The translations under genes were made by a program, and so were the position numbers. A stretch of DNA of 64,000 nucleotides from a virus, in IMG/VR virus record IMGVR_UViG_3300036770_005214, positions 44,123-108,122 of that record. One strand, 5' to 3'. Under the pieces are notes generated by a model. The model did not search any database. It had not been told where the DNA came from and worked only from the letters and a program-made list of their open reading frames with translations. Within the stretch, counting starts at the first letter, position 1; each line of letters begins with the position of its first letter. Shown one piece after another: positions 41,573 to 59,327 of the stretch.

Positions 41573-43069
41573 TCACCGATACCGACGGGTGCGGAGGGAT
41601 TCTCCCCCAAAGGCGGCTTGTACTGCTGCGGCCCCTTGATCCAAAGCGCCCTGGAGTGCTGCGAGCAGTGCCGCCACTTCAGCGTCACCCGAGACTGCGG
41701 GCGCCGGTGCGGGAGCCGGTGCGGGGGTCATGGTCATGGGGGGAGGCGCCACGGTCACGACGGGGGGCGGCGGCTCCTCGATCACAACCGGAGCGACCGG
41801 GACCGACACGGGCGCCTGCACGGGCCGCGCCGGCACGTCCGCATCGAACTGCGGAAGGAAGGACGGGGCCACCTTGGCGATGTGCTTTCGGAAGTTGGCA
41901 CGAACCACCGGGATCATTCCGGCAAGGAACGCAGCCCCACGTCCATCGGCCACCGCCGCACGGTAGTCGTTCAGCATCGCGTCAAACTTGCTGGGCGCGG
42001 CTGGTGCGGCTGGTGCGGGCGGAGGGCGAACCGGTGCGGGCGGAGGGCGGACCGGTGCGGGGGTCGGAGCGGGCGCCGGGGTCGGAGCGGGCGCCGCGGC
42101 CCGGTAGGCCTTCGCGGCGTTGTAAAGCTCCCGCACCTCGGGCGAGGCCTTCGACGCCATGAGGCCGCCGATGCCCCGGCGATCGGGGATCGAAAGGCTG
42201 CCAAGCCAAGCGTTCAAGTGGGCGAGGTCGTTGCCGGTCTTGCGGGCCTCGGCGAGGAACTGGGTGATCAAGCTCGCCTCCTGGGGGGCTACCGCTTGCT
42301 GCTTGATGCTGTCCATGACGGCCTTGAAGACCTCGCGGACTTCGGAGGGAGTGTCCCCCCGCCGCATCTTGCCAGCGAGCACCGCACGGGTCGGACCCGG
42401 CATGGCCATGACGTAACTCACCGCGCCGCCAAAGCCCCCTGCGTTGTAGGCATCGGCGAACGCCACGACGACCGGATCGGGCTGCGCCATGACGGGAGGC
42501 GCCTCGACGGCCATCGGGGGCGCCTCGACGAACACGGGAGCGGCTTGCACGACTGGCGGCGAGTAGACGACGGTGGGCGTCGGCGCTTCGACCATCGCGA
42601 GGGCCGGGGGAACCTCGGGAGCGGGGCGCTGACGGCGGGCGGGGCGCTGGCCAGCCGGCTTGGTCGGCTTCGCCACGTCGCGACGCAGCCCCATCTCGGC
42701 GCTGGTCATCGGGAGCGGCGAGCACCGAGCGGGGGGAACGCCCTCGGCCGGCTCGCGGTGCTGCTCGGTGGTCCCGTTGATGTGGTAGGTCTTCGACTCG
42801 AACTCACCCGTCGTGTCGGTGAAGTCGACGCGAAGCTCCACATCATACGCGAGGCACTCGCCCACACGCTCCCGCACGACCTGGAGCGCCTGCGCCTTGC
42901 TGGTCAACTCGACCTGCCCGCTCTGCGCCTCCAGCTTGGTGCCGCTGCGGTTGTACGCAAGCTGCTGGACTACCCAGACCCACTTGGGGCGGTTCCGCGC
43001 ACCCTCCGCCGTGACGGGCTCGATGGCGAGGATCAACAAGGCCTTGGCGTTCGGATGACTCGGCTTCAT
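41573..43069 (-). CDS. Pro/Ala-rich multidomain protein, 498 aa
   Basis: The N-terminal 100 residues are an alpha/beta domain (KALLILAIEPVTAEGARNRP, VQQLAYNRSGTKLEAQSGQV, VDFTDTTGEFESKTYHI). Its plan resembles, by eye, the triplicated domain of the 654-aa basic protein just upstream. The middle has helical units joined by long Pro/Ala/Val linkers (APVRPPPAPVRPPPAP near 350-365). The end has a helix ALLAALQGALDQGAAAVQAA and an Arg-rich tail. The start ATG 43069 has only a weak ribosome site. A promoter (TTGACC) lies about 50 bp upstream. It may bind DNA or act as a scaffold. Confidence 0.6.
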   Translation of the reverse strand: MKPSHPNAKALLILAIEPVTAEGARNRPKWVWVVQQLAYNRSGTKLEAQSGQVELTSKAQALQVVRERVGECLAYDVELRVDFTDTTGEFESKTYHINGTTEQHREPAEGVPPARCSPLPMTSAEMGLRRDVAKPTKPAGQRPARRQRPAPEVPPALAMVEAPTPTVVYSPPVVQAAPVFVEAPPMAVEAPPVMAQPDPVVVAFADAYNAGGFGGAVSYVMAMPGPTRAVLAGKMRRGDTPSEVREVFKAVMDSIKQQAVAPQEASLITQFLAEARKTGNDLAHLNAWLGSLSIPDRRGIGGLMASKASPEVRELYNAAKAYRAAAPAPTPAPAPTPAPVRPPPAPVRPPPAPAAPAAPSKFDAMLNDYRAAVADGRGAAFLAGMIPVVRANFRKHIAKVAPSFLPQFDADVPARPVQAPVSVPVAPVVIEEPPPPVVTVAPPPMTMTPAPAPAPAPAVSGDAEVAALLAALQGALDQGAAAVQAAFGGESLRTRRYR

Positions 43070-43115
43070 CGGAGGACCCCGAAAACAGTTGGGGGGCAAG
43101 TGGCCCGCTATAGAC

Positions 43116-43144
43116 CCCTTACCCCCCTTCTATCCGTAGGTCAA
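43116..43144 (-). promoter_or_regulatory. Promoter TTGACC-N17-TAAGGG
   Basis: On the minus strand TTGACC (43144-43139) and TAAGGG (43121-43116) are 17 bp apart, and the -10 follows GGGGGG. It lies upstream of the 498-aa gene and would drive it together with the 109-aa and methylase/helicase genes. Confidence 0.55.
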
Positions 43145-43195
43145 TCCCTTCACAGGTCCGACCGACCTAGCCCCGCCTGCTGCGAGGCTTTACGG

Positions 43196-45160
43196 TCAAC
43201 GCTTCGACGTCCGACGCTTGGGGGCGGACCGCTTCTTGACCGCGCCGTGCTTCCGACGAGCCGTGCGGAGCGCCGCCTCCGCCACCACATCGCCAACCGC
43301 GGGGAGAGCCGCAGAGGACTTCGCCTTGGTGGTCTTGGCCTTGGTGGTCTTGGCCTTGGTGGTCTTGGCAGGCCGCGCCTTGATGCTGCGCTCCCCGGGG
43401 AGCTTGCGCTTGGGGTTCTCCCGAACCCAGTTGTCCTGCGCAATACTCAAGGGGTAGCCCATCTTAATCTGGGCCGCGATGTACTTCTGGTAGCTGGTCC
43501 TGCGGGTTCCGGCCTTCGCCTTGGAGGCCTTGGTGCTCTTGCCCTTGGTGCTCTTGCCCTTGGTGGTCTTCTTGATCACTTCGGTCTTCGCAGTCTCGCC
43601 CTTGTGAGCCCGCCAAGCCGCCGCCGCTTCCTTCATGGACTTGCCAGCCTTACGCTGCGCGGCCACGAACTTGTTGTAGGCGCTGACCTTGCGGGTTCCA
43701 GACTTCGCCTTGGAGGCCTTCGGCTTCGCGGTCTTCGGCTTCGAGGTCTTCGGCTTCGCGGTCTTCTTCACAGTCTTCTTGGCGGTCGTGCCGGACTGCG
43801 CACGCCATGCGGCTGCCGCCTGCGCCATCGTCTTGCCAGCCTTCATCTGGGCCCCGACGAACTTGTTGTAGGCGCTGACCCCAGCCCCGGTCGTCAGTTC
43901 CGAGAGCCCAGCGGCCATCACAGCTTCATCCCACTCCCTCTTCTCCCTTTCAGTCATAGCGTTGGAACGACGACGACGAGCACCCGCTCCCAGCCCCCCG
44001 CCCACTGGGCGCCCTGGCAGATTGTTGACCCACTCATCGAGATACTTGTTGTAGGCGCTGACCTTGCGGGTTCCCGTCTTGCGGGTCTTGCGGGTCTTGC
44101 GGGTCTTGCGGGCCTTACGGGCCTTGGGCGCCGCCTCCGCGGCGGTGGTGGTCTTGGCCTTGGTGCTCTTCGCCTTCCGACGTACCGTGACCTTGGTTCC
44201 AATCCGCTTCTTCGTGGACTTGGTGCAGACGTAGCGGGTGCCTTCCTTGGTGTAGGTGCAGACCTCCTTCGAGCCCTCCACCGTCATCACCACCTGGACG
44301 CCAGTGCGGCACCAAGCGCGGATGAGGCGCTGGAGACCCTTCTTCTGGGCCGCAGCAGAGCCTTCCAGCGACCCCGTGACGGTCTTGGTGCCCCGACGCA
44401 CGCTCACAGAGCGAACGCCATCCTTTGCGGCTCCGATGTGGATCCGAACCGACGTAATCTTCCTGGCCATAGCTCGCTCCTTATTGCCTTCTTCGGCGGC
44501 GATGTGGGTTGCCCGACGGCTCCCGGCAAGGGTGCTCGACGAGACGATGCGGTCACCCCGCTTGACGTAGGTGTACTGCCGTCCAGACTCCTCGTCCTCG
44601 ACAAGGACCTTGGAACCTGGAGTAGCCCACTTTTCGATCAGTTCTTGCATCACAGAACGCTGCGCCCTCGCATCGCCCATGAGCGGAGTGTTGCTGTACT
44701 TGTCTTTCCCAGTGCTGGGATCGGTGTAAGTGACCTGCACAAAGCGCAGGCGCTTGCCGTCCTCTTTCGTGACGACCATGCGGACCAAGTAGACGTGGCC
44801 CTCAACGACCTTCCGCTTGGCTTTCTTGGGGCTCTTGCCAGCAGAGTCGGCGCTCTTCATGGACCCTCCGCGCGGGGACACCGGGGCGAAACTGCCATCG
44901 TCCTGCCGGCCGTAGGTCACGGTCTTTCCAGTCGCCTCGTAGGTGACGATGACCTTATTGCCCTTGTACCTCTGAATCTGATCTTCAAGGTCCGCTCGCC
45001 GTTCGGCCTCCGTATTGCCCCGGATAAAAGTCCCTTGGCCAGAGATCCGCTCTCCCCGTGCGCCCAGTTGTTGAACGCTCACATTCCGCCGTAGGTTGTG
45101 AACGCTCTTGCCCACGGACATCCGAACCAAACTGACCGCGACTGACTTCCGTGCAGGCAT
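43196..45160 (-). CDS. Lys-rich nucleoprotein candidate with four SAYNK-type units, 654 aa
   Basis: This is a very basic protein. Residues 9-94, 124-206 and 237-312 are three copies of a domain of about 80 aa (each with an early strand LVRM/VRIH, a helix, and a TVTYG/YTYVK/CTYTK strand). Then come Lys/Thr/Arg/Ala linkers (KARKTRKTRKTRKT) and four SAYNK-type units: SAYNKYLDEW, SAYNKFVGAQ, SAYNKFVAAQ and TSYQKYIAAQ, three continuing to a conserved Trp such as AAAAWRA. The unit resembles HMG-box/YABBY-type DNA-binding helices of eukaryotes and their viruses. The protein may condense viral DNA. ATG 45160 has GGGAGATCGG before it. Confidence 0.65.
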   Translation of the reverse strand: MPARKSVAVSLVRMSVGKSVHNLRRNVSVQQLGARGERISGQGTFIRGNTEAERRADLEDQIQRYKGNKVIVTYEATGKTVTYGRQDDGSFAPVSPRGGSMKSADSAGKSPKKAKRKVVEGHVYLVRMVVTKEDGKRLRFVQVTYTDPSTGKDKYSNTPLMGDARAQRSVMQELIEKWATPGSKVLVEDEESGRQYTYVKRGDRIVSSSTLAGSRRATHIAAEEGNKERAMARKITSVRIHIGAAKDGVRSVSVRRGTKTVTGSLEGSAAAQKKGLQRLIRAWCRTGVQVVMTVEGSKEVCTYTKEGTRYVCTKSTKKRIGTKVTVRRKAKSTKAKTTTAAEAAPKARKARKTRKTRKTRKTGTRKVSAYNKYLDEWVNNLPGRPVGGGLGAGARRRRSNAMTEREKREWDEAVMAAGLSELTTGAGVSAYNKFVGAQMKAGKTMAQAAAAWRAQSGTTAKKTVKKTAKPKTSKPKTAKPKASKAKSGTRKVSAYNKFVAAQRKAGKSMKEAAAAWRAHKGETAKTEVIKKTTKGKSTKGKSTKASKAKAGTRRTSYQKYIAAQIKMGYPLSIAQDNWVRENPKRKLPGERSIKARPAKTTKAKTTKAKTTKAKSSAALPAVGDVVAEAALRTARRKHGAVKKRSAPKRRTSKR

Positions 45161-45213
45161 CCGATCTCCCAAGGTACCGCACCGTTGGTATCAGAATGGG
45201 CCTTGAAACTGCA

Positions 45214-45244
45214 AACGGTAGCCCCCCATTGAGGAGCTACCGTT
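45214..45244 (-). terminator. Hairpin terminator after the 221-aa gene
   Basis: AACGGTAGC pairs with GCTACCGTT (9 bp) around a 13-base loop, and on the minus strand is followed by TGCAGTTT. It lies 45 bp downstream of the stop at 45290 and 53 bp before the start of the 654-aa gene, so it probably ends the virion operon. Confidence 0.55.
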
Positions 45245-45289
45245 GTGCGCGGCGCGAATAGGATGTGAGCCAGGAAACTAGGCTGTCAG

Positions 45290-45955
45290 CTACTCCTCGT
45301 CGTCGTAGTCGCCGTCGTCGTCCAGATAGTCGTTGTCTTGCGGCTCGTCCTCGTCCTCAAACTCGGCATTGTCCTCGGCTTCTTCCATGAGCGCCGTTTC
45401 GACTTGGCGCAACATGGCGCGCACTGCACGACCCATCTGCGCAGGGCGAACGCGGATGGGCTCCAGGTAAGGAACAGCCTGGACACTGCGCTTTCCGTTG
45501 CGCTCGGTCTCCTCAAAACGGAACGGCTGCAAGGCGAGACCTTGCGCATCCAGTTGGAGGTTCAAGCGGATCGCACCGCCGAACCGGCGCCCCAGAATGG
45601 CCGCGAGACGGCGCCCGAAGGCGTCGCCCTGGTCCGCGAACGAGGCAGCGCCCCCGACGTCTTCCTGGGCCGTTTCTGCCCCACCAGAGGCCACCGGGGG
45701 AGCATCGGAGGCGACGGGCTGTTGCTGCGCGGCGAGTTGGGTGAGCAGGCCCCGCGCTTCGGGGTTGGAGAGGAGCATCGGCAAGATCTTCTGGATGGGC
45801 GACCAGTCGCCACCAGCGATCCGCTGAATGTCATCGGGGCCCAATCCGGCTTGCATGGCAAGCTCCAGAAAGTTCACCCCACCACTCGACTGCGCTGCGC
45901 TCTCCATCGGAGTCTCCTGTGCCTTGCTCGGCTTCGCCGGCTGCTTTCGGGTCAT
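45290..45955 (-). CDS. Acidic-tail protein, 221 aa
   Basis: A short N-terminal Lys/Pro region and a helical part (GDWSPIQKILPMLLSNPEAR) are followed by an alpha/beta core (RRLAAILGRRFGGAIRLNLQ). The C-terminal 33 residues are almost all Asp and Glu. Acidic tails occur in scaffolds and in proteins that compete with DNA for basic proteins; the basic 654-aa protein is encoded next. ATG 45955 follows AGGATGGAACCC; an ATG nine bases earlier is possible. No family was recognised. Confidence 0.58.
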   Translation of the reverse strand: MTRKQPAKPSKAQETPMESAAQSSGGVNFLELAMQAGLGPDDIQRIAGGDWSPIQKILPMLLSNPEARGLLTQLAAQQQPVASDAPPVASGGAETAQEDVGGAASFADQGDAFGRRLAAILGRRFGGAIRLNLQLDAQGLALQPFRFEETERNGKRSVQAVPYLEPIRVRPAQMGRAVRAMLRQVETALMEEAEDNAEFEDEDEPQDNDYLDDDGDYDDEE

Positions 45956-45965
45956 GGGTTCCATC

Positions 45966-46286
45966 CTACTCGAAGTTGTTGCGGAGGCATGGCAGCACCC
46001 CAGGCGGGATGACCTGCGCTCCGAAGCCATAGCCGGCCAGTGCATACGTCCGAACGGTCAGGTTGGAACCCTTGACCTCCGTAACGGTGCTCACCGTGAT
46101 GCCCCGACGGTCGAAGTGGTGCAGGATGCGCCGGACGTAGCTCTCCGACACACCCAGACGCTCCGCGATCTTCGACGCGGTGGCGGGCCAGTAGCCCGTG
46201 AGCAAGAGCAAGACGATGCGAGCGCCCGTCTCGGCGCCCGATCGACCTCGCTTGGTCTCTTCGCTCAGGTCACGGTCTTGCGGCAT
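45966..46286 (-). CDS. Winged-helix-like regulator, 106 aa
   Basis: The middle fits a winged helix: IVLLLLTGYWPATASKIAER, then LGVSESYVRRILHHFDRRGI as recognition helix, then wing strands TVSTVTEVKGSNLTVRTY. The N-terminus is charged. ATG 46286 follows AAGGG, and the leader carries two related palindromic elements (46284-46301 and 46322-46339). Position inside the virion operon suggests a late-gene regulator that may also control itself. Confidence 0.6.
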   Translation of the reverse strand: MPQDRDLSEETKRGRSGAETGARIVLLLLTGYWPATASKIAERLGVSESYVRRILHHFDRRGITVSTVTEVKGSNLTVRTYALAGYGFGAQVIPPGVLPCLRNNFE

Positions 46287-46321
46287 CCCTTATGGGGTAA
46301 CGCGCCCCTTCCTGATACGCC

Positions 46322-46339
46322 ACAACCCTTATGGGCTAC
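46322..46339 (-). promoter_or_regulatory. GTAGCCC-N4-GGGTTGT element before the winged-helix gene
   Basis: On the minus strand GTAGCCC ATAA GGGTTGT overlaps the stop of the 150-aa gene. A second related copy (GTTACCCCATAAGGGATG) runs into the start codon at 46286. The core CCCATAAGGG is the same in both. They may be operators of the winged-helix protein. Confidence 0.4.
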
Positions 46340-46788
46340 CAGCGCCGGCCATTCCGCTGGGGGATGGGATCGTTGATCTCCACCGTTTCGCCGTCCGTAT
46401 CGCGCAGGAGTGCGCCGACCTGCACGCCCCCCGAAGAGGTCGCCCGGCGACTCCGCGAACGCCCCGACTCGGGCGTGAGCAGCACTTGACCCGTGTCCAA
46501 CCGCTCCGCCTTCCACCGCCGGCCTCGTTGCACGGCGATGCGGAGACCTTCCACGATCTCCTTCTCTTGCCAATCGTCCCGCGGAGCCACCGCAGCGATG
46601 GGCGTCTCGTACTCGCCGCCTTCCCAGTAGGCAGGGGACCAGCCGCCCGGACGGTCCGTCGTGTAGACGCTCGCCGAGGCGTTCGCCGCCGAGAAGCCGC
46701 CGGGGTTGACCGAGTTCGCGGTGATGTACCCCGCGTGCTCACCGATCCGTGCGAGCATCTGCCCATTCACCCGTCCGATGCGCCGCAT
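46336..46788 (-). CDS. Virion-block protein, 150 aa, N-terminal MRRIGRV
   Basis: The N-terminus MRRIGRVNG matches the start of the 198-aa protein (MRRIGQVG) and of two others (MQRIGMI), the recurrent motif of this block. A second form, VQVGALLRD, is near the C-terminus. The body is soluble with SVNPGGFSAANASASVY and a strand/helix region. ATG 46788 follows GGGGAGTCGTG and overlaps the stop of the next upstream gene (TGATG), so translation is coupled. It is probably a virion component. Confidence 0.6.
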   Translation of the reverse strand: MRRIGRVNGQMLARIGEHAGYITANSVNPGGFSAANASASVYTTDRPGGWSPAYWEGGEYETPIAAVAPRDDWQEKEIVEGLRIAVQRGRRWKAERLDTGQVLLTPESGRSRSRRATSSGGVQVGALLRDTDGETVEINDPIPQRNGRRW

Positions 46789-47096
46789 CACGACTCCCCA
46801 CGCGCCGGAACCCGCGGCGCTTGCACAGGGTAACCCATGAACGTGGTAGGAGGCTTGCCCTCCGTCCACCGCTCTACCACGAGTGTCAGCTTGCCCTGCG
46901 AAAGTCCCGTGCGGACCTTGGCACGCTTCCCTCCCAACCCTTCCAGCCTTCGCGCCGCGATGCGAGGACGACGCCGCCCCGCCCGGTCCGCGATGCGCTT
47001 CCGCCGTGCGTCCCGAGCTTCGGTGACGTTACGGCTGAAGTCGAAAGCCGTGTTGATGCTCGTGAGCACCAGCACGATGTTGGTGAGGAAGCCCAC
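46788..47096 (-). CDS. Basic protein with N-terminal hydrophobic helix, 102 aa
   Basis: The N-terminus has a hydrophobic stretch (GFLTNIVLVLTSINTAFDF) and then a strongly basic part (ARDARRKRIADRAGRRRPRI), so it could sit in a membrane with the basic part toward DNA. The end is strand-like (SQGKLTLVVERWTEG). GTG 47096 follows GGGGGAGTGACGC. It lies 3 bp after the 92-aa gene and is coupled to the 150-aa gene. No family was recognised. Confidence 0.57.
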   Translation of the reverse strand: MGFLTNIVLVLTSINTAFDFSRNVTEARDARRKRIADRAGRRRPRIAARRLEGLGGKRAKVRTGLSQGKLTLVVERWTEGKPPTTFMGYPVQAPRVPARGES

Positions 47097-47099
47097 GCG

Positions 47100-47378
47100 T
47101 CACTCCCCCGCGTCGCCGCGAGAGGGCCAATCCAACAGGTTGTAGTTTTGGTACAACTTGTCGATGTCCACGCCGACGTCCGCCAGCTTCTCTTCCTTCC
47201 GCCGGAGCTTCGCGACTTCGCGCTCAATCCGAATGTGCTGCTTGAGGACGTCCTGGGTCCGCCGCCGAATCTTGTTGACCTCGCGGACCTCCGCCGGATC
47301 CCAGAAAGCGCCCACCGCGTTGTGTTGCCACATGCCTAACTCCTCTAGTTGTTTGTACTTTTCTTGGAAGTCGTACAC
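47100..47378 (-). CDS. Helical coiled-coil protein, 92 aa
   Basis: The protein is helical and charged, with NKIRRRTQDVLKQHIRIERE and KLRRKEEKLADVGVDIDKLY heptads, and no membrane segment. It starts at ATG 47378, overlapping the stop of the 311-aa gene, so translation is coupled. It is in the virion operon. No family was recognised. Confidence 0.57.
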   Translation of the reverse strand: MYDFQEKYKQLEELGMWQHNAVGAFWDPAEVREVNKIRRRTQDVLKQHIRIEREVAKLRRKEEKLADVGVDIDKLYQNYNLLDWPSRGDAGE

Positions 47379-48313
47379 TACACATCCGCGAAGATGACCA
47401 CCGAACCGCCGTCCGTTGGCTCCACTTGCAAAGCACCGCGAGCCTTCGTGTTGATGCCGTACTTCAGCGCCTTGGCAAGGGCCAGATTGTTAATCATCGT
47501 CGCCTTGTCGGGAGCATGGGTCACCGTGACCGCCGAGCCGTCAAAGCGGTTGTTGTCGACGATGACCGTGCTCTCCCGAGGTTCCGAGACGGGGTAGCCG
47601 TTTTCCGCCAGAATGGTGCTGAACTCGGTCACCGCATCGGCCACCGCCCCGACGTAGCCCGTCCCAGGGGTAGCCGGCGTGGTCACATAGCGGTTGATCA
47701 GGAAGCCCACGAGCGCCCCGATCCCAGTCGCCACCCCGCGGTTCTTGCGGGCCACCGCATAACCAACCCCAGCCCCCACGAGCGAGTACAAGAGCGGGCC
47801 TGCTTCAGTCCCGAACCCCGCCGCCGCCGCGTCCTTCTTCTTGAACTTCTCCCGCACCGAGGTCACCGCCTTGGCGGTCCCTTGCTTCACGCTAGAGGCT
47901 GCTTTCGCAGTCCCTTGCTTCACACTGTAGGCCACCTTGTCAGCTACCTCGCCAGACTTGCGGAAGAACAGGCGACCGCCGACAGCGTGCAGGCGCCCAT
48001 AGGGTCCGGGCACCTTGTCGGCGCGCAAGAGCGCGGCCGTAGTCTCGTTCACCTTGTCGGACAAGTGCTGAAGCTCTTTGTAGAAGGGAGTACGGCTTTG
48101 CTTCCCATTCGGGTCTTTCTTCAGAACGTAGGCGGAGAAGAACGCGTTTAGTTTCGAGACGGCTCTTTCGATCTCCTGGAGATTCCCGGAGCCCATGCCG
48201 TACTCGTACATGGAAGTCTGCAAACCCACCAGCGGAGACGGATCAGCGTCGTAAGCGGTATTGTAGAAGTCCTCGACAGCGCCCACCGAGCTAATCATCC
48301 CGATGCGTTGCAT
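47378..48313 (-). CDS. Glycine-zipper virion-block protein, 311 aa, N-terminal MQRIGMI
   Basis: It starts MQRIGMISSVG. A helical N-terminal domain follows, then a repeated VKQGTAKA (residues 131-138 and 142-149), then a glycine-zipper membrane part (LLYSLVGAGVGYAVARKNRG and ATGIGALVGFLINRYV, near 174-210), and a C-terminal alpha/beta domain of about 100 aa. The first 210 residues match the 191-aa gene upstream (LLYSLMGAGVGYAVARKNRG), so the pair are tandem paralogues and only this one has the C-terminal domain. It is probably a virion membrane protein. Confidence 0.62.
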   Translation of the reverse strand: MQRIGMISSVGAVEDFYNTAYDADPSPLVGLQTSMYEYGMGSGNLQEIERAVSKLNAFFSAYVLKKDPNGKQSRTPFYKELQHLSDKVNETTAALLRADKVPGPYGRLHAVGGRLFFRKSGEVADKVAYSVKQGTAKAASSVKQGTAKAVTSVREKFKKKDAAAAGFGTEAGPLLYSLVGAGVGYAVARKNRGVATGIGALVGFLINRYVTTPATPGTGYVGAVADAVTEFSTILAENGYPVSEPRESTVIVDNNRFDGSAVTVTHAPDKATMINNLALAKALKYGINTKARGALQVEPTDGGSVVIFADV

Positions 48314-48339
48314 GTGCGTCTCTCCAGGTCAGTAAGGGA

Positions 48340-48915
48340 CTATTGCCGTAGGGCTTGGTTGGCCAGGAAGCCCACGAGCGCCCCAACACCAGCGGCCATT
48401 CCGCGGTTCTTGCGGGCCACCGCGTAGCCGACACCCGCTCCCATGAGCGAGTACAACAGCGGCGCCGAGTCAGACCCGAACCCAGCGGACTCGGCCCCCT
48501 TCCCAGCGCGGGGCTGGACCCCTGGACCCAGAGAGACCCGCGCTCCAGGATCCCGGAAGGACAGACGACCGTTGGTAACGGTAAGACGCCCATGTGGGCC
48601 GGGCACCCCGTCGCGTCGCAGATCGAACGCCACGAGTTGATTCACTGCGGCAGCGTATTCTTCAAGCTCTTTATAGAACAAGTCACGAGGCTTGCCCGAG
48701 GCCTCTTTCTCTGAAACGTAGTCAGAAAAATAATCGTTCACTTTCTTGATCTCAAACTGAACATCCCCGATGCCCCTTTCGCCTCGGTACATCATAAGAA
48801 TGGTCTGCTTCAAGGAATCGTAGGCTCTTCCCCCAGGACCGGGGGAGATAGCGTTCTCCCAAGCGTACAATCCCCTGGCCTCGCTCACTGACCCAATCAT
48901 TCCGATGCGTTGCAT
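48340..48915 (-). CDS. Glycine-zipper virion-block protein, 191 aa, N-terminal MQRIGMI
   Basis: It starts MQRIGMIGSVS and shares the domain order of the first 210 residues of the 311-aa protein: a helical part with VNDYFSDYVSEKEASGKPRD, DGVPGPHGRL, then a C-terminal glycine zipper LLYSLMGAGVGYAVARKNRG and VGALVGFLANQALRQ. It ends at that membrane part. The pair arose by tandem duplication. The role is probably a structural membrane protein of the virion; no named family was recognised. Confidence 0.62.
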   Translation of the reverse strand: MQRIGMIGSVSEARGLYAWENAISPGPGGRAYDSLKQTILMMYRGERGIGDVQFEIKKVNDYFSDYVSEKEASGKPRDLFYKELEEYAAAVNQLVAFDLRRDGVPGPHGRLTVTNGRLSFRDPGARVSLGPGVQPRAGKGAESAGFGSDSAPLLYSLMGAGVGYAVARKNRGMAAGVGALVGFLANQALRQ

Positions 48916-51791: not shown

Positions 51792-52252
51792 CACTGCACC
51801 AGCGACGCGACGAGGTAGCCCACACCAGCACCGATGGCAGCCGACTGGATCCGGCGCCCGGAGCCGCCCAGCAGGAGGCCCACCGTGGCCCCGAGCATGA
51901 CGGACGTCCCGGTGCCAATGTCCGCGATCAGCCCCTCCGACTTGGCGGCGTTGACCACCTCGGTCGGGACCACGCGGGCTGCTTCCGCCTTCTTGGCCTT
52001 GCCCTTCGCGGCCTTGGTGATCTTGGTCGGGTCCTGCTCCTCGGGAGCCGCCGGAGCCGCCGCCTTCTTCTTGCCGAAGAGCTTGCCGAGCCCCTTGCGC
52101 TCCTCGGGAGGCTTGGCCGCATCCTTCGCGGCACGAGCAGCCGCGGCCTTCGCCCCGATGCCGATCAACGGCACCAGGAAGAACACCCCGCTCTCGGGCT
52201 CTTCGATGTAGCCGACGCGCTCATACGCGACGACTTCGCCACGCCGGCCCAT
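51791..52252 (-). CDS. Membrane protein with glycine-zipper end, 153 aa
   Basis: The N-terminus YERVGYIEEPESG (a motif variant) is followed by a hydrophobic stretch VFFLVPLIGIGA. A Lys/Ala-rich linker (KITKAAKGKAKKAEAARVV) lies in the middle. The C-terminus is a glycine zipper (VMLGATVGLLLGG and AAIGAGVGYLVASL). It is coupled to the next gene and lies 3 bp after the 198-aa gene. It is probably a structural membrane protein. Confidence 0.58.
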   Translation of the reverse strand: MGRRGEVVAYERVGYIEEPESGVFFLVPLIGIGAKAAAARAAKDAAKPPEERKGLGKLFGKKKAAAPAAPEEQDPTKITKAAKGKAKKAEAARVVPTEVVNAAKSEGLIADIGTGTSVMLGATVGLLLGGSGRRIQSAAIGAGVGYLVASLVQ

Positions 52253-52255
52253 GTT

Positions 52256-52852
52256 TCAGCGACCCCGACGGCGCGGAGCGTAGTTGGAGCCAAACTGGTC
52301 ATCGGCGTCGTAGCCGGGGTGGAACTGGTTGCCGTAGTAGGGGTCGTACTCGTCCGACTCGCCGCGGAAGGGGTCCGCGAGGCCCCAGTCGAGGTCGCCG
52401 ACGTTGCCGATGTGGACCAGCCCCTCCGCCTCGGCCTCGTCCCCGTCGAGGTCGTCATCCATGCGGCGCAGCGAGCGCGAGGCCCGCGCCGCTTCCCGGC
52501 CCATCTGGCGATAGGAGCGACGGATCTGCCGGCCGCTCGGGGCGTCCTCGGCAAGCTCACCAGCGCACTCCGCGAGGCCCGCGAGCGCCGCCTCGACGCC
52601 ATACGAACTCGGGCAGGCCCGGAGCACGTCATACATGCCCTCGATGGCCTCCACCACTTCCGCCTTGGTCGGGGCGGGCATCGGGCTGCCCTCGCCGTCT
52701 TCGTCATCGCCGAACTCGTCCATCACGGTCGACGAGAGGCGCTTCGAGGCGCCCTGCTTCGCCTGCCCGTAGGCCGGCTTGACGACCGAAGAGAACTCGG
52801 CGCCGATCCGCTTGAACAGGCCCAGCTTCCCAACTTGTCCGATGCGACGCAT
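52256..52852 (-). CDS. Virion-block protein, 198 aa, MRRIGQV start and EGLVHIGNV inside
   Basis: The N-terminus MRRIGQVGKLG and an internal EAEGLVHIGNVGDLDWG (residues 141-157, after an acidic run) both carry the recurrent motif. The middle is helical (EVVEAIEGMYDVLRACPSSY). The C-terminus is Tyr/Asp-rich and ends NYAPRRRGR. I chose ATG 52852 because GATAAGGAGTCCATC lies just before it; the long upstream extension has no ribosome site. It is probably a soluble virion or scaffold-like protein. No named family was recognised. Confidence 0.62.
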   Translation of the reverse strand: MRRIGQVGKLGLFKRIGAEFSSVVKPAYGQAKQGASKRLSSTVMDEFGDDEDGEGSPMPAPTKAEVVEAIEGMYDVLRACPSSYGVEAALAGLAECAGELAEDAPSGRQIRRSYRQMGREAARASRSLRRMDDDLDGDEAEAEGLVHIGNVGDLDWGLADPFRGESDEYDPYYGNQFHPGYDADDQFGSNYAPRRRGR

Positions 52853-52862
52853 GATGGACTCC

Positions 52863-53618
52863 TTATCCGAGACAGTAGTATGCGACTTCGTAGGTGGTAG
52901 GCAGGATGCCCCCGGAAGCCGCAAGGGTGTAGCGAAGACCGGGGACAACAGCGATCCGGTCACTGCGGGGAGACGTCAACACTTCGTCGTAAACCAGCAC
53001 ACCCGCCGCATTGTACCCGCGGAGTTGTGCGCCAGGGCTGGTCGACAGGGTGACGACCTCAAACGAGGAACAGAAGGGCGGCAGGTCGAGCAGGACCTCG
53101 GCCGCCGCCGTGCTCACCGTCTGGAAGTCGCTCCAGTAGGAGAAGCCCGCCGTCGCCTCGTCGAGCCCGTAGTGAGCCGTGATCGGGAAGGCGTTGGGGT
53201 TCTCGACCTCGAAGTCGATCGAGCGCCCGAAGACGTACAGAATCGACGCGTTGCCCACCACGCCGTTGCTCAATGCCGCCTGCACGAACACCCGGCGGGT
53301 GATGACCTCGTTGCCGGACGAGGCCCGGACAAAGAAACGCAAGCCGGCCGATCCGTTCGCCGGCAGCACCGTCCCCGGGGGGATGGCGGCGGCAAGCTGA
53401 ATCTTCCAGCGGAAGATGTGGTTTGGCAGACTGCCGATGCGGAGCGCCTGCCGCGGGTTCCCCACGAATCCCGCCAGCGCGGCGACCTCTACTTGGTCGC
53501 CAATCTTGTACCCAATCAGGTCCCGGTCGAACACCTGATCGCGCGTCGTCACCGCGTAGGGTGGCGTCTGCTCAAACGGGTTCTGGTGCCAGTTGGCAAG
53601 GTTGCGGGGGAAAGCCAT
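52863..53618 (-). CDS. Beta-rich protein, 251 aa (capsid protein candidate)
   Basis: This is a soluble beta-rich sequence with repeated strand pairs (GSLPNHIFRWKIQLAAAIPP, GLRFFVRASSGNEVITRR, LYVFGRSIDFEVENPNAFPI, YEVAYYCLG) and no membrane segment. The order is compatible with a viral jelly roll, but no family is recognised. The start is ATG 53618. It follows a strong terminator that separates it from the 227-aa gene. Pairing of two single-jelly-roll shell proteins is known in P23-77-like viruses; this one may be the second shell or spike protein (inference). Confidence 0.58.
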   Translation of the reverse strand: MAFPRNLANWHQNPFEQTPPYAVTTRDQVFDRDLIGYKIGDQVEVAALAGFVGNPRQALRIGSLPNHIFRWKIQLAAAIPPGTVLPANGSAGLRFFVRASSGNEVITRRVFVQAALSNGVVGNASILYVFGRSIDFEVENPNAFPITAHYGLDEATAGFSYWSDFQTVSTAAAEVLLDLPPFCSSFEVVTLSTSPGAQLRGYNAAGVLVYDEVLTSPRSDRIAVVPGLRYTLAASGGILPTTYEVAYYCLG

Positions 53619-53668
53619 GTGGGTAGAGCCTCAAGGGCCGATAGATCAGAACAGACAGAGGGAGGTAA

Positions 53669-53711: not shown

Positions 53712-53761
53712 AGTCAGCCCGGCGGATGGGGAAGTCCCCCGGTCAACGGGCCGAGGGTCGA

Positions 53762-54445
53762 TCAGCCGCCGACGCCGGACAGCGCGAGCGCCGCGTCGAT
53801 GAGCACCTTCTCAAGCGCCTGCTGCGCCATGTAGGGCGAAAGCTCGTCACCGATCAGACCGCCAGAGACCGTGTGGCCCGAGCCAGCGTCGATGTTCTGG
53901 AGGTTGATACGGAACTGCTGACCGACGTTGATCGGACGGCGGCCGATGACCTGCATGAAGCGCGTAGAATCACGGCTCCAGAGGGACAGCGGGATGCCCT
54001 GCGACCCGACGTTGACCGGCAACCCGGCGACCGTGATACCGGTCACGAGGATGCTGGCCGGATCGTCCGAGTCGAGGATGACCGACTTGGCCCAGAAGGT
54101 ACGGTTCAGGGTGTCGTTCAGGTTGCCGGTGCCGCCCGCCGCGATGGTGGTGGACCCGAGGCCGTCAAACTGGTTCTCTTGGACCAGATTGGCAGCGCCC
54201 GCGAGCCGGTAGGACTCGACGAGGTTCGCGCGAGCCGGGGGCATCTCGAAGTCGACGTCCGACTCGTCAGCTTCGGCCAGCATCGCCTCGTACTTCGCAG
54301 CGCGACCGCGAGCGCGGGCGGCACGGCGAGCGAGACGGCCAGCGCGGCGGGGGCCGTACGCGGCGCCCGAGTCAACGTCGCCCACGCCGGAATCGGCGAA
54401 GACTTCGCCAGTGGCGGTGTCGATGTAAGCGTTCATCAGGGACAT
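53762..54445 (-). CDS. Major capsid protein candidate, 227 aa
   Basis: An Arg-rich arm (PRRAGRLARRAARARGR, residues 32-48) is followed by an acidic linker and then a beta-rich body (FWAKSVILDSDDPASILVTG, GRRPINVGQQFRINLQNIDA, HTVSGGLIGDEL) with a C-terminal helix. A basic arm plus jelly-roll-like body is typical of shell proteins that touch DNA or membrane. The gene has its own leader of about 150 bp, a good ribosome site (GAGGACACC) and the strongest terminator in the window, as expected for a highly expressed gene. No family was recognised. The acidic region may be a maturation site. Confidence 0.6.
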   Translation of the reverse strand: MSLMNAYIDTATGEVFADSGVGDVDSGAAYGPRRAGRLARRAARARGRAAKYEAMLAEADESDVDFEMPPARANLVESYRLAGAANLVQENQFDGLGSTTIAAGGTGNLNDTLNRTFWAKSVILDSDDPASILVTGITVAGLPVNVGSQGIPLSLWSRDSTRFMQVIGRRPINVGQQFRINLQNIDAGSGHTVSGGLIGDELSPYMAQQALEKVLIDAALALSGVGG

Positions 54446-54598: not shown

Positions 54599-54602
54599 TC
54601 AG
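54574..54602 (-). promoter_or_regulatory. Promoter candidate CTGACG-N17-TAGCCC
   Basis: On the minus strand CTGACG (54602-54597) and TAGCCC (54579-54574) are 17 bp apart, with TTGGG before the -10. It starts at the end of the 268-aa gene and would drive the 227-aa gene through a leader of about 125 bases. Support is modest. Confidence 0.4.
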
Positions 54603-55405
54603 CGTCCGCGACCGCCGCGGAAACGGGGGAGGACGCGAACGGGAGCCAAGGGACGGCGGCGGGGCACGAGCACCGGAGCGGCCGGACCGCGGCGCACGAC
54701 AACGGACGGGGCGTCGTCATCGTCAACGGCGTCGCGCAGAAGCTCCTGCGCCTCCTCTTCCAGGTTCTTCTTCTTCAGCCGGCCTTCGAGACGAGCGACG
54801 CGCTTGTCCTTGCCCTTGGCCTTCGCCTTCAAGATCTTGGCCTGGATGCGGGCCGCGCGCTTCTCGTCCTTGTCCACGTCGTCACCGCCGACGTCGACAG
54901 TGCCGATGTGGATCAGGCCTTCGCTGTCCATGCCGTCCACGTCCATCCCGTCCACATCGCCCACGTCGATGTAGCCGGCCTCGTAGCCAGCCGCGGAGGC
55001 CGCGGGGATCAGCTTCGAGCTACGGGCGAAGGACAGACCAGCCGGGACGATCATGCCGATCGCCGCGTTCTGGAGCAGGTGCCGGTAGTTGGTCAGCGCC
55101 TTGGTCTGGCCAGCGATCAGGGTCGCCGCCGCGCCGACGATGCCGAGCGGAAGGGTCAGACCGGTAGCCTGCTCGTACTTGCCCTGGAACTTGCTCTCCA
55201 GGGTCGCGGCGGTCGCCGCACCAGCCACCACAGCCAGCGCGTTCTTGGCGGTGCTCATGGTGAAGGCGCCGGCGAGGCGCGACATGCCCTTGCGGCTCTT
55301 GCGGCTCTTACGGCTCTTGCGACCGCTCTTGCGGCTGCCCTTGCCCCGCTTGTTGCTCTTCCGGCTCTTACCGCCGCCAAACGAACTCGGCATGGGGAGA
55401 CTCAT
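54599..55405 (-). CDS. Basic-arm membrane protein, 268 aa, EGLIHIGTV inside
   Basis: Residues 13-40 are Lys/Arg/Ser-rich (KSRKSNKRGKGSRKSGRKSR). Three hydrophobic stretches (near 54-69, 84-99 and 111-126) follow and suggest a membrane or helical bundle. Then comes GYIDVGDVDGMDVDGMDSEG and the motif EGLIHIGTVDVGG (162-174), then a charged coil and a Pro/Arg-rich end. The ATG follows GTCGGAGGTTTCG. This is probably a virion membrane protein that also contacts DNA. No family was recognised. Confidence 0.6.
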   Translation of the reverse strand: MSLPMPSSFGGGKSRKSNKRGKGSRKSGRKSRKSRKSRKGMSRLAGAFTMSTAKNALAVVAGAATAATLESKFQGKYEQATGLTLPLGIVGAAATLIAGQTKALTNYRHLLQNAAIGMIVPAGLSFARSSKLIPAASAAGYEAGYIDVGDVDGMDVDGMDSEGLIHIGTVDVGGDDVDKDEKRAARIQAKILKAKAKGKDKRVARLEGRLKKKNLEEEAQELLRDAVDDDDAPSVVVRRGPAAPVLVPRRRPLAPVRVLPRFRGGRGR

Positions 55406-55418
55406 CGAAACCTCCGAC

Positions 55419-55436
55419 GTGGTACGGCTACCACGA
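55419..55436. repeat. Palindrome CGTGGTA-N4-TACCACG in the leader
   Basis: A perfect 7-bp inverted repeat with a 4-base centre lies 13 bp before the start codon of the 268-aa gene, overlapping a GTGGTAGCCG -10-like stretch. It is an operator or leader hairpin candidate. Confidence 0.45.
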
Positions 55437-55508
55437 GAATCAGGTGAAAGCAGAACTGTAGTCGCTCAAAAGGGGTATGCTCTCGCATCGCCCCGGTTCC
55501 CTGACGGT

Positions 55509-57371
55509 CTACTTCCGCCAGAACTCGTCAGGACCTTGGGTCCACGCGGGGGGGATACGCTTCACACGAGGCGTCGCGTCCCACTTGCGCGGAGACTTCT
55601 CCAACCAAGCAGAATCCCCGTCCGACCAGAACCCGCCGATGCTCGCGTTCGTGCCGTAGCTACGGTAGCCGCCCGGCGCGAACATGGAGGGAGGAGGGGC
55701 ACCAAAGGAAGGCATCGGCCCCGCGTAGGACATCGGGGGCTGCGGCGGCATCGGATACTGCGGCATCTGGGGCTGCGGCATCGGATAGCCGTAGGGCTGC
55801 GGCTGCGGATACGGCTGGGGCTGCTGCTGTTGGCGACGACGCCCGCCACCGCCGCCACGTCCCTGGCCGCCGAAGGCCCGACCGGGCAGCGGGACCGCGG
55901 AGAGGCCCCGGCGCTGCAACTTCTCGGCAAGCTCCCGCTCCTCTTTCTCATCCTTGAGGCGCTGGACAAGCGCCTGCATCCCGGGACGGTCTTGGACTTC
56001 AAGGCCCGCCTGCCGACGCGACTGCCGCTGCGCCTTCAGCGCCTTCAAGCGGGACGCGAGGCCCCCGCGACCACCACGCCCGGAGACCATCGCACCCGTG
56101 TAGAACCCGGTCGCCTTGGCTTCCGCTTCGGCCTTCCAGGGGGTGTAGTCCTCGCCGTCGGAAAGCTCCTTGAACTTCGCGCGGAGCTTCTGGAGCTTGG
56201 CCCAGGTCTTCTCAAGCTGTTTCTTCACCTTCTCGGGGTTGTCCTTCGAGAACGTGCCCTTCAACTTCTCGAAGATGTTGCCGACGTTCGGGGCGACGAT
56301 GCCGAAGCACCCATCCCCCATCGGAACCACCTCGCCTCCCTCGATCTCCCCGGTGAGCACGCCCACGAGGACCGACATCGCCGCGATGCCCGCTGCGTTG
56401 TAGCCCACGCCCGCCGTCGTCGGCTCCGCGGTGAAGGTGTAGACGATCTGGCTGTCCGACACGACAGCCGCCGTGTAGTAGATGCCTTCACCGCCCGCGA
56501 GGTTCTTCGCAAGCTCGGAGAGTTCGGAGCGGACAGTGGCGGTCAGCGGACCATTGATGGTGACGGTCGCGGCTTCAACGTCCACACTGTCTGCCATTCC
56601 CTTGCCAGCGACGCGCTTCCCAAACTTTGCGGCGATCTTGAGCGCCTTCTCTTGGCGCTTGGCCAGCTTCTTCTGGTACTCGGACTGGAACGTCTGGACT
56701 TCACCGACGCCACCAGCGCCCCACTGCATCGGGCCCGCGTCGCCGTAGCGGGGAGCGAGCGCGAACTTGCCCCAGAAGGAGGGCTCGCGGCTGTAGCAAC
56801 CGGTCCACAGGTCGTAGCCGGTCTCGGGCGAGCAGCAGTACAGGCCGGGCCACGCTTCGGAAGCGGCCTCGCACATGTTGTACTGCGGCAGATCAAGGTA
56901 GCTGTTGAAGTTGAAGTCGGTGTCGCCGACGAGCGCACCGACCGGGCGCACATCGTAGGCGCTCGCGGCTTCTTCGCGGTTCCAGGGGTCGTCCATCGAG
57001 ATGGAGGGCGAGTAGGAGAGGGTGTCATCCCCCGCGCCGTACTTCCAGTAGTCGCGACGCTCGCGCAACGCGCCGACGCTCGCCAAGCCTTCCGCCCGGG
57101 GGTTCCACTGATACAGCGGCATCCGGTCGGTGAAGTACGACTGGTGGTCCATCGCGTGATCGGCCTTGTGCCACGCAGAGTCCCAGTAGTCGTAGTCGTC
57201 GTCCGCAGTCCACGGCGAGAAGTTGTTGAGGTGGCCCACAATGGCGCCGAGGATGCCTGAAGCAGTCGTCGGGCACTGGATGACCATCGCGTGCTCGTCG
57301 CCGACGGGTCCGCTGCAACGCTCGTTCTCGCGCTCACCGACCAGCCGACCGATCGCGATGCTCTCGAACAT
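55509..57371 (-). CDS. Large virion-block protein, 620 aa, three IG/VG motifs
   Basis: The recurrent motif occurs at least three times: IAIGRLVGER at the N-terminus, EGLASVGALRERR (94-106) and VRPVGALVGD (141-150). The first 220 residues are Tyr/Trp/Asp-rich. The middle has a region compatible with a membrane or buried helix (GIAAMSVLVGVLTG) and a coil. The end is Gly/Arg and Pro/Gln/Tyr-rich (GGQGRGGGGGRRRQQQQPQP), a flexible tail. I chose ATG 57371 because GGAGGTCTTC precedes it. An inverted repeat can hide this ribosome site. It is likely a large virion or tegument-like protein. Confidence 0.6.
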   Translation of the reverse strand: MFESIAIGRLVGERENERCSGPVGDEHAMVIQCPTTASGILGAIVGHLNNFSPWTADDDYDYWDSAWHKADHAMDHQSYFTDRMPLYQWNPRAEGLASVGALRERRDYWKYGAGDDTLSYSPSISMDDPWNREEAASAYDVRPVGALVGDTDFNFNSYLDLPQYNMCEAASEAWPGLYCCSPETGYDLWTGCYSREPSFWGKFALAPRYGDAGPMQWGAGGVGEVQTFQSEYQKKLAKRQEKALKIAAKFGKRVAGKGMADSVDVEAATVTINGPLTATVRSELSELAKNLAGGEGIYYTAAVVSDSQIVYTFTAEPTTAGVGYNAAGIAAMSVLVGVLTGEIEGGEVVPMGDGCFGIVAPNVGNIFEKLKGTFSKDNPEKVKKQLEKTWAKLQKLRAKFKELSDGEDYTPWKAEAEAKATGFYTGAMVSGRGGRGGLASRLKALKAQRQSRRQAGLEVQDRPGMQALVQRLKDEKEERELAEKLQRRGLSAVPLPGRAFGGQGRGGGGGRRRQQQQPQPYPQPQPYGYPMPQPQMPQYPMPPQPPMSYAGPMPSFGAPPPSMFAPGGYRSYGTNASIGGFWSDGDSAWLEKSPRKWDATPRVKRIPPAWTQGPDEFWRK

Positions 57372-57376
57372 GAAGA

Positions 57377-57410
57377 CCTCCGACGCGGATGGTAACAGAT
57401 GCGTCGGAGG
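57377..57410 (-). promoter_or_regulatory. Perfect 10-bp inverted repeat covering the ribosome site, with promoter
   Basis: CCTCCGACGC and GCGTCGGAGG are perfect inverted repeats 14 bp apart. The minus-strand GGAGG that serves the 620-aa gene lies in one arm, so in a longer transcript the site would be paired and blocked. The spacer holds TACCAT (57394-57389), and GTGACC lies 16 bp upstream, a possible promoter that would start after the first arm. Confidence 0.5.
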
Positions 57411-57452
57411 GGTCACACGCTCAAAGGGGGTCTACTCCCTCACTTTCTCGCG

Positions 57453-57474
57453 GAAGGGGTATGTATACCCCTTC
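57453..57474. repeat. Palindrome GAAGGGGTAT-GT-ATACCCCTTC
   Basis: This is a 10-bp perfect inverted repeat with a 2-bp centre, just downstream of the stop of the 614-aa gene. Each half matches the AAGGGGTAT element at 7661, 19793, 27232 and 55468. It could be a regulator site or a weak bidirectional transcript end. Confidence 0.55.
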
Positions 57475-57482
57475 GATTGTCG

Positions 57483-59327
57483 TCATTCGTCCTCGTCCTC
57501 GTCCTCGTCTTCGTCCTCGTCATCCCCTTCATCTTCGTCGTCGAAGTCGTCATCTTCGTCTTCGTCTTCGTCTTCGTCGTCTTCTTCGTCCTCGTCCTCG
57601 TCTTCGTCGTCATCATCGAAGCTGACGGCGGGCAGCTTACCCCCTCGGGGCTTCGGCTTCGCCTTGGGCTTGGGCTTCGGCTTGGCCCCCCGACGGGGCT
57701 TCACCTCCTCCTCTTCCTCTTCCTCTCCGTCTTCCGAGAGGAGCAACGGGTCCTCGACGTCCTCATCCTCGTCTTCGCCATGCCCGAGGGCGCCGGACAA
57801 CTCGCTGCGGAAGCTCTCCGCAAAGCCGGGGCTCGCGTGCGCCAGCTTCTCGACGGCCTTGCGCCGCGTCTCGCTCGGGAGCATCTGAAGCACGAGGGCG
57901 GCCTGCTCGGGCGTCACGTTCGCGAGGTCGAGACCACCGAGGCCCCCCGACTTCTTCTCGACTTCGCGCCGGCGACCCCGCTGGCGCGCGACCCGCGACT
58001 CCCGCTCGGTGCGGCGCCGCTCCCGGCGAACGCGCGTGATCTCCCCGATGACGGGCGTGCTGGAGATCTCGTCAATGTCCTCGTCCACCTCGTCGCGGGC
58101 GGGCGCCTGCGGGGCAGCGACGGGAGCCTCGTTCGCCTGCTGGCCTTGCTGGCCCTGTTGGACCATCCCGAGCAGCGTGCTGAGCATCCCGCCCTCGTCG
58201 CCCGACTTCGCCTGTTTCTTGAGTCGCTTGATCTCCCGTACCACCTTCTCATAGGCCCGGCGCATGGTCCCCAAGTGCGTCTCCGCGACCTCGGCGCGTT
58301 GCTTGTACCGGACCAGCTTCTCTTGCGCGATCGACGCCCGGCGCTCGGCGTCCGAGAGGGAGTCGCGAATGTCGTCGACCTCCTCCTCCAGGGCTTTGTA
58401 CTCGTCTACCATCTCGCGCTTCTCGCGCTTCCATTCCTCGCGGATGCGGTCCCACTCCTCCCGCTGACGCTGGCGCTCGGTCTCGATGACCTCCACCTTC
58501 GCCTTGGCGCGCTCCCCCTCGCGGGTCATCACGAGCAGTTGGTCATTGTGCGCCTTCAAGATGGCGACCATGTTCTCGCGAAGGGTCCGCTGGTCCTCGA
58601 CGGACAGCTTGCGGTCCTCTTTCAAGACTTCGATGATCTGCTCGGCTTGCTTCCCCTCGCGGCTCGACGACCGGGCGCTGATCTCCGTCAGCGTGGTCAC
58701 CAACCAGTTGATCGTGGAGAAGGTGACGCTCGACTCGTAAGCCTGGGGACGCGCTTCGTGCATGGGTGCCACACGGGGTTCGAGGACGGGAGACGGGGCC
58801 GGGGGAGGATAGGCCGGGCGGGGCGCCTGCGGAGGCGTCACAAGCTGCTGCGGCGTGTAGGCGGGTGCTGGGGCGGGTGCGGGCGCGGGAGCGGGCGCTG
58901 GGGCCATCGTGGGCGCAGGGGAAGGCATCGCCGGCAGCCGGGGAGGCGGCGAGACCATGCCGTGCTCCGGGGAGACCGCGTGGCGCTCGCTGACGCAGTT
59001 GAGATCGAAGCCCTCGGCGTCGACCCAGGTGTCCATCCTCTCGTCCTGAATCTGCACCAGGAGCCGGAACTGCACCACCGCCTCGTCCGGGTATCGCTCC
59101 AAGATCTCGTCGACCTTGCGGAAGACCTCCGTCTGCACCTCGGACTCGCTCTTGAGACCAATCTGCACATACTCGGGCGCGAACTTCGGTCCTTGCCCCG
59201 TCGCACGCGCCGAGATGGCCACGCGTCCGGGAAGCTCGTCTAGGGGTACGTCGTCTTCTTCGAGGCGTAGCTGGGCCGTCAGCCACTCCCCCGCGCTCGT
59301 CGCGTTGTAGAACCACCCTCGGGCCAT
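57483..59327 (-). CDS. Large coiled-coil protein with acidic tail, 614 aa
   Basis: An N-terminal soluble domain (about 1-125, with GRVAISARATGQGPKFAPEY and AVVQFRLLVQIQDERMDTW) leads to a Pro/Ala linker (APAPAPAPAPAPAPAY). A long coiled coil (about 245-390) and an Arg-rich patch (RRERRRTERESRVARQRGRR) follow. The tail of about 55 residues is almost only Asp and Glu. ATG 59327 follows GGAAGGAGGGATCG. The build is that of a scaffold or rod. No family was recognised. Confidence 0.6.
   Translation of the reverse strand: MARGWFYNATSAGEWLTAQLRLEEDDVPLDELPGRVAISARATGQGPKFAPEYVQIGLKSESEVQTEVFRKVDEILERYPDEAVVQFRLLVQIQDERMDTWVDAEGFDLNCVSERHAVSPEHGMVSPPPRLPAMPSPAPTMAPAPAPAPAPAPAPAYTPQQLVTPPQAPRPAYPPPAPSPVLEPRVAPMHEARPQAYESSVTFSTINWLVTTLTEISARSSSREGKQAEQIIEVLKEDRKLSVEDQRTLRENMVAILKAHNDQLLVMTREGERAKAKVEVIETERQRQREEWDRIREEWKREKREMVDEYKALEEEVDDIRDSLSDAERRASIAQEKLVRYKQRAEVAETHLGTMRRAYEKVVREIKRLKKQAKSGDEGGMLSTLLGMVQQGQQGQQANEAPVAAPQAPARDEVDEDIDEISSTPVIGEITRVRRERRRTERESRVARQRGRRREVEKKSGGLGGLDLANVTPEQAALVLQMLPSETRRKAVEKLAHASPGFAESFRSELSGALGHGEDEDEDVEDPLLLSEDGEEEEEEEVKPRRGAKPKPKPKAKPKPRGGKLPAVSFDDDDEDEDEDEEDDEDEDEDEDDDFDDEDEGDDEDEDEDEDEDE

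Follow-up and report, generated by a model that had tools for sequence, protein, structure and literature searches.

An apparently closing 108-kb genome of a bacterial virus without detectable terminase, portal or HK97-type capsid genes

The genes described here lie in a 64,000-nucleotide stretch of DNA (the window) that comprises bases 44,123-108,122, the terminal part, of the 108,122-bp IMG/VR virus record IMGVR_UViG_3300036770_005214. Window positions 41,573-59,327 hold a block of about 21 genes on one strand, which the original prediction, made from the letters of the window, had read as the structural gene set of a large tailless, membrane-type virus. Genes were called piecewise, in the window and in the remaining 44 kb of the record, with a codon-usage scorer; 105 were obtained and one was added manually. 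They sit on both strands, the GC content is about 65% with a fairly even range of 60-72%, and no tRNA genes were detected in the record. The open reading frames that the prediction had named in the block were all present where it placed them, on the minus strand and with coding-type composition. The block and the 2044-amino-acid (aa) gene that extends its run to 35,117 are arranged as follows (window positions).

57483-59327, minus strand: g94, 614 aa, with a proline-rich linker, a coiled coil and a very acidic tail (net -58); no PHROG match
55509-57416, minus strand: g93, 635-aa orphan with a hydrophobic segment near residue 336 and a proline/glutamine-rich C terminus
54599-55405, minus strand: g92, 268 aa, glycine-zipper hairpin preceded by a Lys/Arg-rich N terminus; no PHROG match
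53762-54445, minus strand: g91, 227 aa, Arg-rich helical arm and probable beta domain; coat-protein candidate
52863-53618, minus strand: g90, 251 aa, all-beta in a low-confidence model; coat-protein candidate
52256-52963, minus strand: g89, 235-aa orphan with the [IV]GxI motif both N-terminal and internal
51791-52252, minus strand: g88, 153 aa, glycine-zipper hairpin
51345-51794, minus strand: g87, 149 aa, weak DUF1232 match (below cut-off)
50563-51330, minus strand: g86, 255 aa, glycine-rich hydrophobic N terminus and long Ala/Glu/Arg coil; paralogue of g85
50199-50525, minus strand: g85, 108 aa, small, glycine-rich and hydrophobic
49278-50174, minus strand: g84, 298 aa; a Cys/His/Asp pattern resembling that of transglutaminases, seen by eye (DDCEGLA...LFHAVTK...YDDPS)
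48340-48915, minus strand: 191-aa paralogue of g82 (39% identity), glycine-zipper hairpin
47378-48313, minus strand: g82, 311 aa, glycine-zipper hairpin
45966-47378, minus strand: g78-g81, four small genes
45966-46286, minus strand: winged-helix-type DNA-binding protein (HTH_23, 5e-07)
45290-46045, minus strand: g77, 251-aa orphan with an acidic tail
43196-45172, minus strand: g76, 658 aa, very basic (net +109), with repeated SAYNKFV...W modules joined by Lys-rich linkers; no family match
41573-43099, minus strand: g75, 508-aa orphan, Ala/Pro-rich
35117-41251, minus strand: g73, directly downstream of the block, a 2044-aa N6-methylase plus SNF2 helicase protein, distantly DarB-like

The large proteins of the block had no match among the PHROGs and the small ones had general regulator-type matches only, while Pfam recognised the winged-helix protein and, below threshold, the DUF1232 protein. 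The first gene, g94, is preceded by the strongest Shine-Dalgarno sequence of the block (AAGGAGG), and we infer its product to be scaffold-like. The true start of g89 is likely at MRRIGQV, after the Shine-Dalgarno sequence AAGGAG. Judged by composition, g92 is a candidate for a membrane protein contacting DNA and g76 a candidate DNA-condensing virion protein. The g76 module has the consensus SAYNKFV-x-K-x-GK-x-AAAAWRA, with no database match; these modules resemble small DNA-binding modules of giant viruses. The product of g84, which matched nothing in Pfam, PHROG or the PDB, is possibly a maturation (cysteine) protease, a lead drawn from the pattern seen by eye.

Record bases 1-121 are identical to window positions 63,863-63,983. 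When the flanks were joined at this 121-bp overlap, an uninterrupted frame of 316 codons resulted, with its N-terminal half at the record start and its C-terminal half at the window end. Pfam identified the joined frame as PP2C_2 (E 1.7e-08), with a match that spans the join.

63510-63983, joined to record 1-586, minus strand: PP2C-like phosphatase, C-terminal half, in a frame that crosses the record ends

Because both frame and match are continuous at the protein level across the ends, the map apparently closes, at about 107,984 bp and as a circular or circularly permuted molecule, despite the linear class given by IMG/VR. The closed size of about 108.0 kb exceeds what was visible in the 64-kb window, and it bears out the earlier statement that this genome, then put at 64 kb or more, lies far above those of known tailless membrane phages (7-18 kb, PMC5894146). 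Closure also means that gene absences concern a whole genome and not a fragment, and are therefore informative.

Six-frame searches of the record were negative for the large terminase (Terminase_6N, PF03237, and phrog_2 TerL), the portal (PF04860), the HK97-fold major capsid protein (Phage_capsid, PF05065) and an FtsK/SpoIIIE-type packaging ATPase (PF01580). The same searches were positive in control genomes, in 14 of 14 for the packaging ATPase. PHROG scans of nearly all of the approximately 106 genes likewise gave no terminase, portal, major capsid, tube or baseplate protein. The original prediction had seen no terminase, portal, HK97 capsid, tail or baseplate gene in the block; this holds across the whole 108-kb record, including the adjacent sequence, where it had named a terminase, portal or HK97 capsid gene as evidence against itself. 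A census of P-loop proteins in the genome returned helicases, a MoxR ATPase, an SMC/AAA protein and a recombinase-like ATPase only, none of which resembles a packaging motor. Yutin et al. argue that P-loop packaging ATPases, even diverged ones, are readily recognised by their motifs (PMC5894146). Three candidates were rejected. The tape-measure match of 5687-7621 is a coiled coil within the SMC/AAA protein, the "baseplate hub" and tail-lysin matches of 23545-24858 fall on its transglycosylase domain, and g36 was dropped as a packaging ATPase on account of its recombinase-type look, its position next to an SSB-like gene and its lack of a family match.

One alternative is that the virus is tailed after all, with head, packaging and tail proteins so diverged that profile hidden Markov models (HMMs) miss them; the block would then be its head/tail module. 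The layout of the block, the fibre set described below and the DarB-like and MoxR genes are all found in tailed phages, the fibre module is that of cyanophages, and searches with just the two TerL families failed in six comparison contigs. TerL is, however, among the best-conserved phage proteins and carries a P-loop, yet no unassigned P-loop protein here fits; nor is any of the large block proteins, which lack PHROG matches, portal-, tube- or tape measure-like. We consider a cryptic tailed phage unlikely.

A recurrent feature of the block is a hairpin of two glycine-zipper helices joined by a short basic loop. The original prediction had named six glycine-zipper proteins in the block; such segments are present in all six, and four of them (47378, 48340, 51791 and 54599) have the hairpin form. 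It had also pointed to a further set of small beta and membrane proteins at 19931-23579, and this set indeed includes two more hairpin proteins.

19931-21640, plus strand: g48-g51, small beta-type orphans (94, 125, 123 and 189 aa); no match found
21640-23579, plus strand: g52-g55, comprising a small beta-type protein, the hairpin proteins at 22039 and 22594, and a protein with a C-terminal membrane anchor at 22899

By a criterion set after the proteins had been inspected, hairpins occur in 6 of the 30 proteins of the block and second set and in none of the 76 elsewhere (106 proteins; hypergeometric probability about 3e-4), and shuffled proteins gave 1.6 on average and at most 5, against the real 6. 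The hairpin is confined to both sets, and the set at 19.9-23.6 kb is therefore tied to the block. On one side of the second set lies a bacterial HU-type DNA-binding protein (19427-19891) and on the other a DnaJ-like J-domain protein (24888-25568), which scores just under the Pfam cut-off.

The block has 15 occurrences of a short motif, [YRHKQV]-[IV]-G-x-[ILVM], a pattern selected post hoc, where shuffling predicts 3.3; outside the block 11 occurrences against 14.7 expected show no enrichment. Its carriers start at window 46336, 47378, 48340, 50199, 50563, 52256, 54599 and 22594 and at record 24455. It is often N-terminal (MQRIGMI, MRRIGQV, MYYVGEV) and is also found directly after EG (EAEGFHYIGQI, EAEGLVHIGNV, DSEGLIHIGTV), and may be a docking or protease signal.

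The two coat-protein candidates were modelled with AlphaFold2 without an alignment. The model of g91 was uninformative (predicted local distance difference test score, pLDDT, 39). That of g90 was all-beta, with 14 strands in two groups of 7, which makes the beta-rich character earlier ascribed to this protein plausible, though its pLDDT was only 45. Foldseek searches with this low-confidence model retrieved tandem beta-sandwich proteins, with CUB pairs, XepA and cupins among the matches, all with a template modelling (TM) score below 0.35 and non-diagnostic; the phiCjT23 capsid protein ranked 29th, with a TM score of 0.28.

The nature of the host is indicated by genes outside the block and by translation signals.

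Record 1,472-12,560, minus strand: seven fibre-like genes (sequence comparison, PHROG)
Window 23545-24858, minus strand: SLT/phage lysozyme protein (Pfam, PHROG endolysin families)
Window 25571-26281, minus strand: GH46 enzyme, in the peptidoglycan-degrading set 23545-27179
Window 26289-27179, minus strand: peptidoglycan (PG)-binding-domain protein of the same set

Among the seven, g3 is a paralogue of g4, and the four fibre-like genes g5-g8 encode N-terminal domains of some 50 residues that are related to one another. In g8 the C-terminal part has a phrog_1645 ("virion structural protein") match at 1e-87; it also matches 174 phage records, which come mostly from cyanophages and include HMO-2011. 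The fibre at record 9760-11121 (L002) combines an N-terminal anchor of its own with a C-terminal domain about 40% identical to those of cyanophages and HMO-2011; its sequence points to module exchange among otherwise unrelated viruses. The three wall hydrolases at window 23,545-27,179 have PHROG endolysin matches. Shine-Dalgarno sequences of at least 5 nt precede 39 of 103 genes against 42 of 1384 internal start codons, a contrast somewhat inflated because the gene count accepts any start within the first 30 codons. With fibre genes, lysis genes and bacterial-type translation signals all present, the sequence identifies this as a virus of bacteria. A eukaryotic virus origin, raised by GH46 and the SAYNKF modules, is countered by the Shine-Dalgarno signals and the bacterial gene set.

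The genome further encodes a family A DNA polymerase of 967 aa (record 42629-45532, its end at window 1-1410) and other replication and recombination genes: DUF3987, UvrD-type and RecD-type helicases, a tyrosine integrase and a D12 methylase. The N-terminal stretch of the polymerase has a weak uracil-DNA glycosylase (UDG) match, below cut-off, and may be a fusion. The MoxR ATPase gene (g34) is followed by a gene for a VWA-domain protein at record 38004-40519, with a second VWA protein at record 29447-31978; g34 matches tailed phages and bicaudaviruses. A 909-aa protein at window 11958-14687 has, by eye, a GHKL-ATPase-like N terminus and a HEIAH metalloprotease-like motif, with no Pfam or PHROG match.

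That the record is not a virus at all, and represents a plasmid-like element or a mis-assembled contig with acquired phage fibre and lysis genes, would be in keeping with the tyrosine integrase, the plasmid-type methylase-helicase and record ends that IMG/VR does not class as repeats. The scanned proteins include no plasmid mobility or partition family, and the seven fibre-like genes, three wall hydrolases, fairly even GC content and protein-level closure of the circle argue the other way, so that we regard this as very improbable.

The MoxR gene also bears on a spindle-shaped or pleomorphic type of tailless virus, with a hydrophobic helical coat and neither a motor nor a jelly-roll capsid. 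Large tailless prokaryotic viruses of this type exist (tepeuvirus, 72.6 kb, PMC9894754), g34 matches bicaudaviruses, VWA proteins are present, and the several glycine-zipper hairpins and the failure to find a packaging ATPase would suit such a particle. MoxR occurs in tailed phages as well, however, the block has beta-rich proteins, and Shine-Dalgarno signals of bacterial type are present, as are wall hydrolases. To our knowledge large tailless viruses of this type are archaeal only. The hydrophobic alpha-helical coat proteins of spindle-shaped viruses had no PHROG sequence match in this genome, and such a virus appears improbable here.

We give a similarly low probability to the idea that the block at 41.6-59.3 kb builds an intracellular structure, such as a membrane-bound replication or protection compartment, and that the virion comes from other genes or a helper. 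No block protein is proven to be virion-borne, and the fibres (record 1-13 kb) and lysis genes (window 23-27 kb) are located elsewhere. Yet no other block of the closing genome could provide a capsid, and the second zipper set (19.9-23.6 kb) adjoins the lysis genes. Helper-dependent elements are usually far smaller, which counts against a helper.

Relatives of the virus were sought in IMG/VR and in genome scans, which require short exact peptides and thus see close relatives only. With g91, UDG/PolA, g93, methylase-helicase motifs, fibre g8, g90 and the zipper peptide GYAxARKNRG as queries, no relative was found; the matches were unrelated phages with a fibre, polymerase or helicase domain in common only. 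Six long contigs that share the fibre had no structural genes in common with this virus in a local comparison. The virus Rctr197k, matched through PolA, was rejected as a relative since it is a tailed phage whose terminase is annotated, and the single genome match (L055) was a chance similarity at the end of an unrelated gene. In tblastn searches, three block proteins and three second-set proteins found nothing at E<=1 among 50,697 phage records, and record searches with g91 likewise yielded no relative. At the sensitivity available, the virus is an orphan by sequence.

Our favoured reading, whose chances we regard as evenly balanced, is that the record holds the entire genome, about 108 kb with a circular map, of an orphan double-stranded DNA virus of bacteria that builds something other than a tailed-phage particle. 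More specifically, and more doubtfully, it might be the first bacterial virus above 100 kb whose particle is tailless and contains a membrane, is made of orphan coat and zipper-hairpin proteins and assembles, with no virus-coded motor, around DNA condensed by a lysine-rich protein. In such a particle the hairpin proteins would sit in, form or line a lipid layer; g90, g91 or both would make the coat; and the coiled, acidic g94 would act as scaffold. The very basic g76, with g92, would condense the DNA, and g84 might mature virion proteins as a protease. The fibres of record 1.5-12.6 kb, four of which share the related N-terminal anchor, would bind the host. The DNA would be packaged by an ATPase unrecognisable to the tools used or, with no virus-coded motor, by building the particle around the condensed DNA.

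Several points weigh against this reading. All gene absences rest on profile HMMs, which very diverged proteins can escape, and TerL was missed in 6 of 13 comparison phage contigs, possibly fragments, when two single families were used. Neither the profile searches nor the PHROG scans identified a capsid protein in the record, the models of both coat candidates are poor, and no relative was found that would show the gene set to be conserved. The final 17 bases of the record mismatch its start, and IMG/VR classes the record as linear, its ends not as repeats. The block is no richer in strong transmembrane segments than the rest of the genome (5 of 22 proteins, against 19 of 84 elsewhere), so the "membrane" label follows from the zipper hairpins and not from general hydrophobicity.

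Large bacterial viruses are, as a rule, tailed phages equipped with a packaging motor, and a closing 108-kb genome without detectable hallmark genes runs counter to this. Should the particles be tailless, it could be tested directly how large such capsids can be and whether a motor is needed; even as an extreme tailed phage, the virus would stand for a lineage without a relative in the collections searched.

No known virion and packaging module fits this virus, and no precedent was found for motorless packaging together with a large tailless genome in a bacterial virus of this size. The tailless, membrane-type interpretation stands as far as the lack of tailed-phage genes goes; the tailless, membrane-bearing particle with a jelly-roll coat is inference, no capsid protein having been identified, and because no FtsK/HerA packaging ATPase was found the virus falls outside the scheme of the tecti-, cortico- and sphaerolipo-type phages as it stands. 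Like the double jelly-roll viruses (Tectiviridae, Corticoviridae, Autolykiviridae and the Odin and FLiP groups), it would have a tailless particle with internal-membrane proteins, here proposed from genes alone. Prokaryotic viruses of that kind have genomes of 7-18 kb (PMC5894146), against 108 kb here, where no double jelly-roll capsid was identified and no PHROG match to their proteins was obtained. The Odin and FLiP groups resemble it further in lacking a packaging ATPase, none having been found here; encapsidation without a virus-coded ATPase is described for small genomes only (PMC5894146). The spindle-shaped archaeal viruses are tailless, the largest of the cited set being the tepeuvirus at 72.6 kb (PMC9894754). 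Bicaudaviridae, Tepeuviridae and Itzamnaviridae share with this virus a large genome with a tailless particle, putative in the present case, and, in bicaudaviruses, homologues of the MoxR-type ATPase, but they have archaeal hosts and, in the cited set, genomes of at most 72.6 kb, whereas bacterial-type signals, wall hydrolases and fibres are found here. From the Caudoviricetes it differs in that their terminase, portal, HK97 capsid, tail tube and baseplate are undetected in the closing genome, whereas with cyanophages and HMO-2011 it shares the phrog_1645 fibre C-terminal domain, a DarB-like protein, a family A polymerase, an integrase and lysis enzymes.

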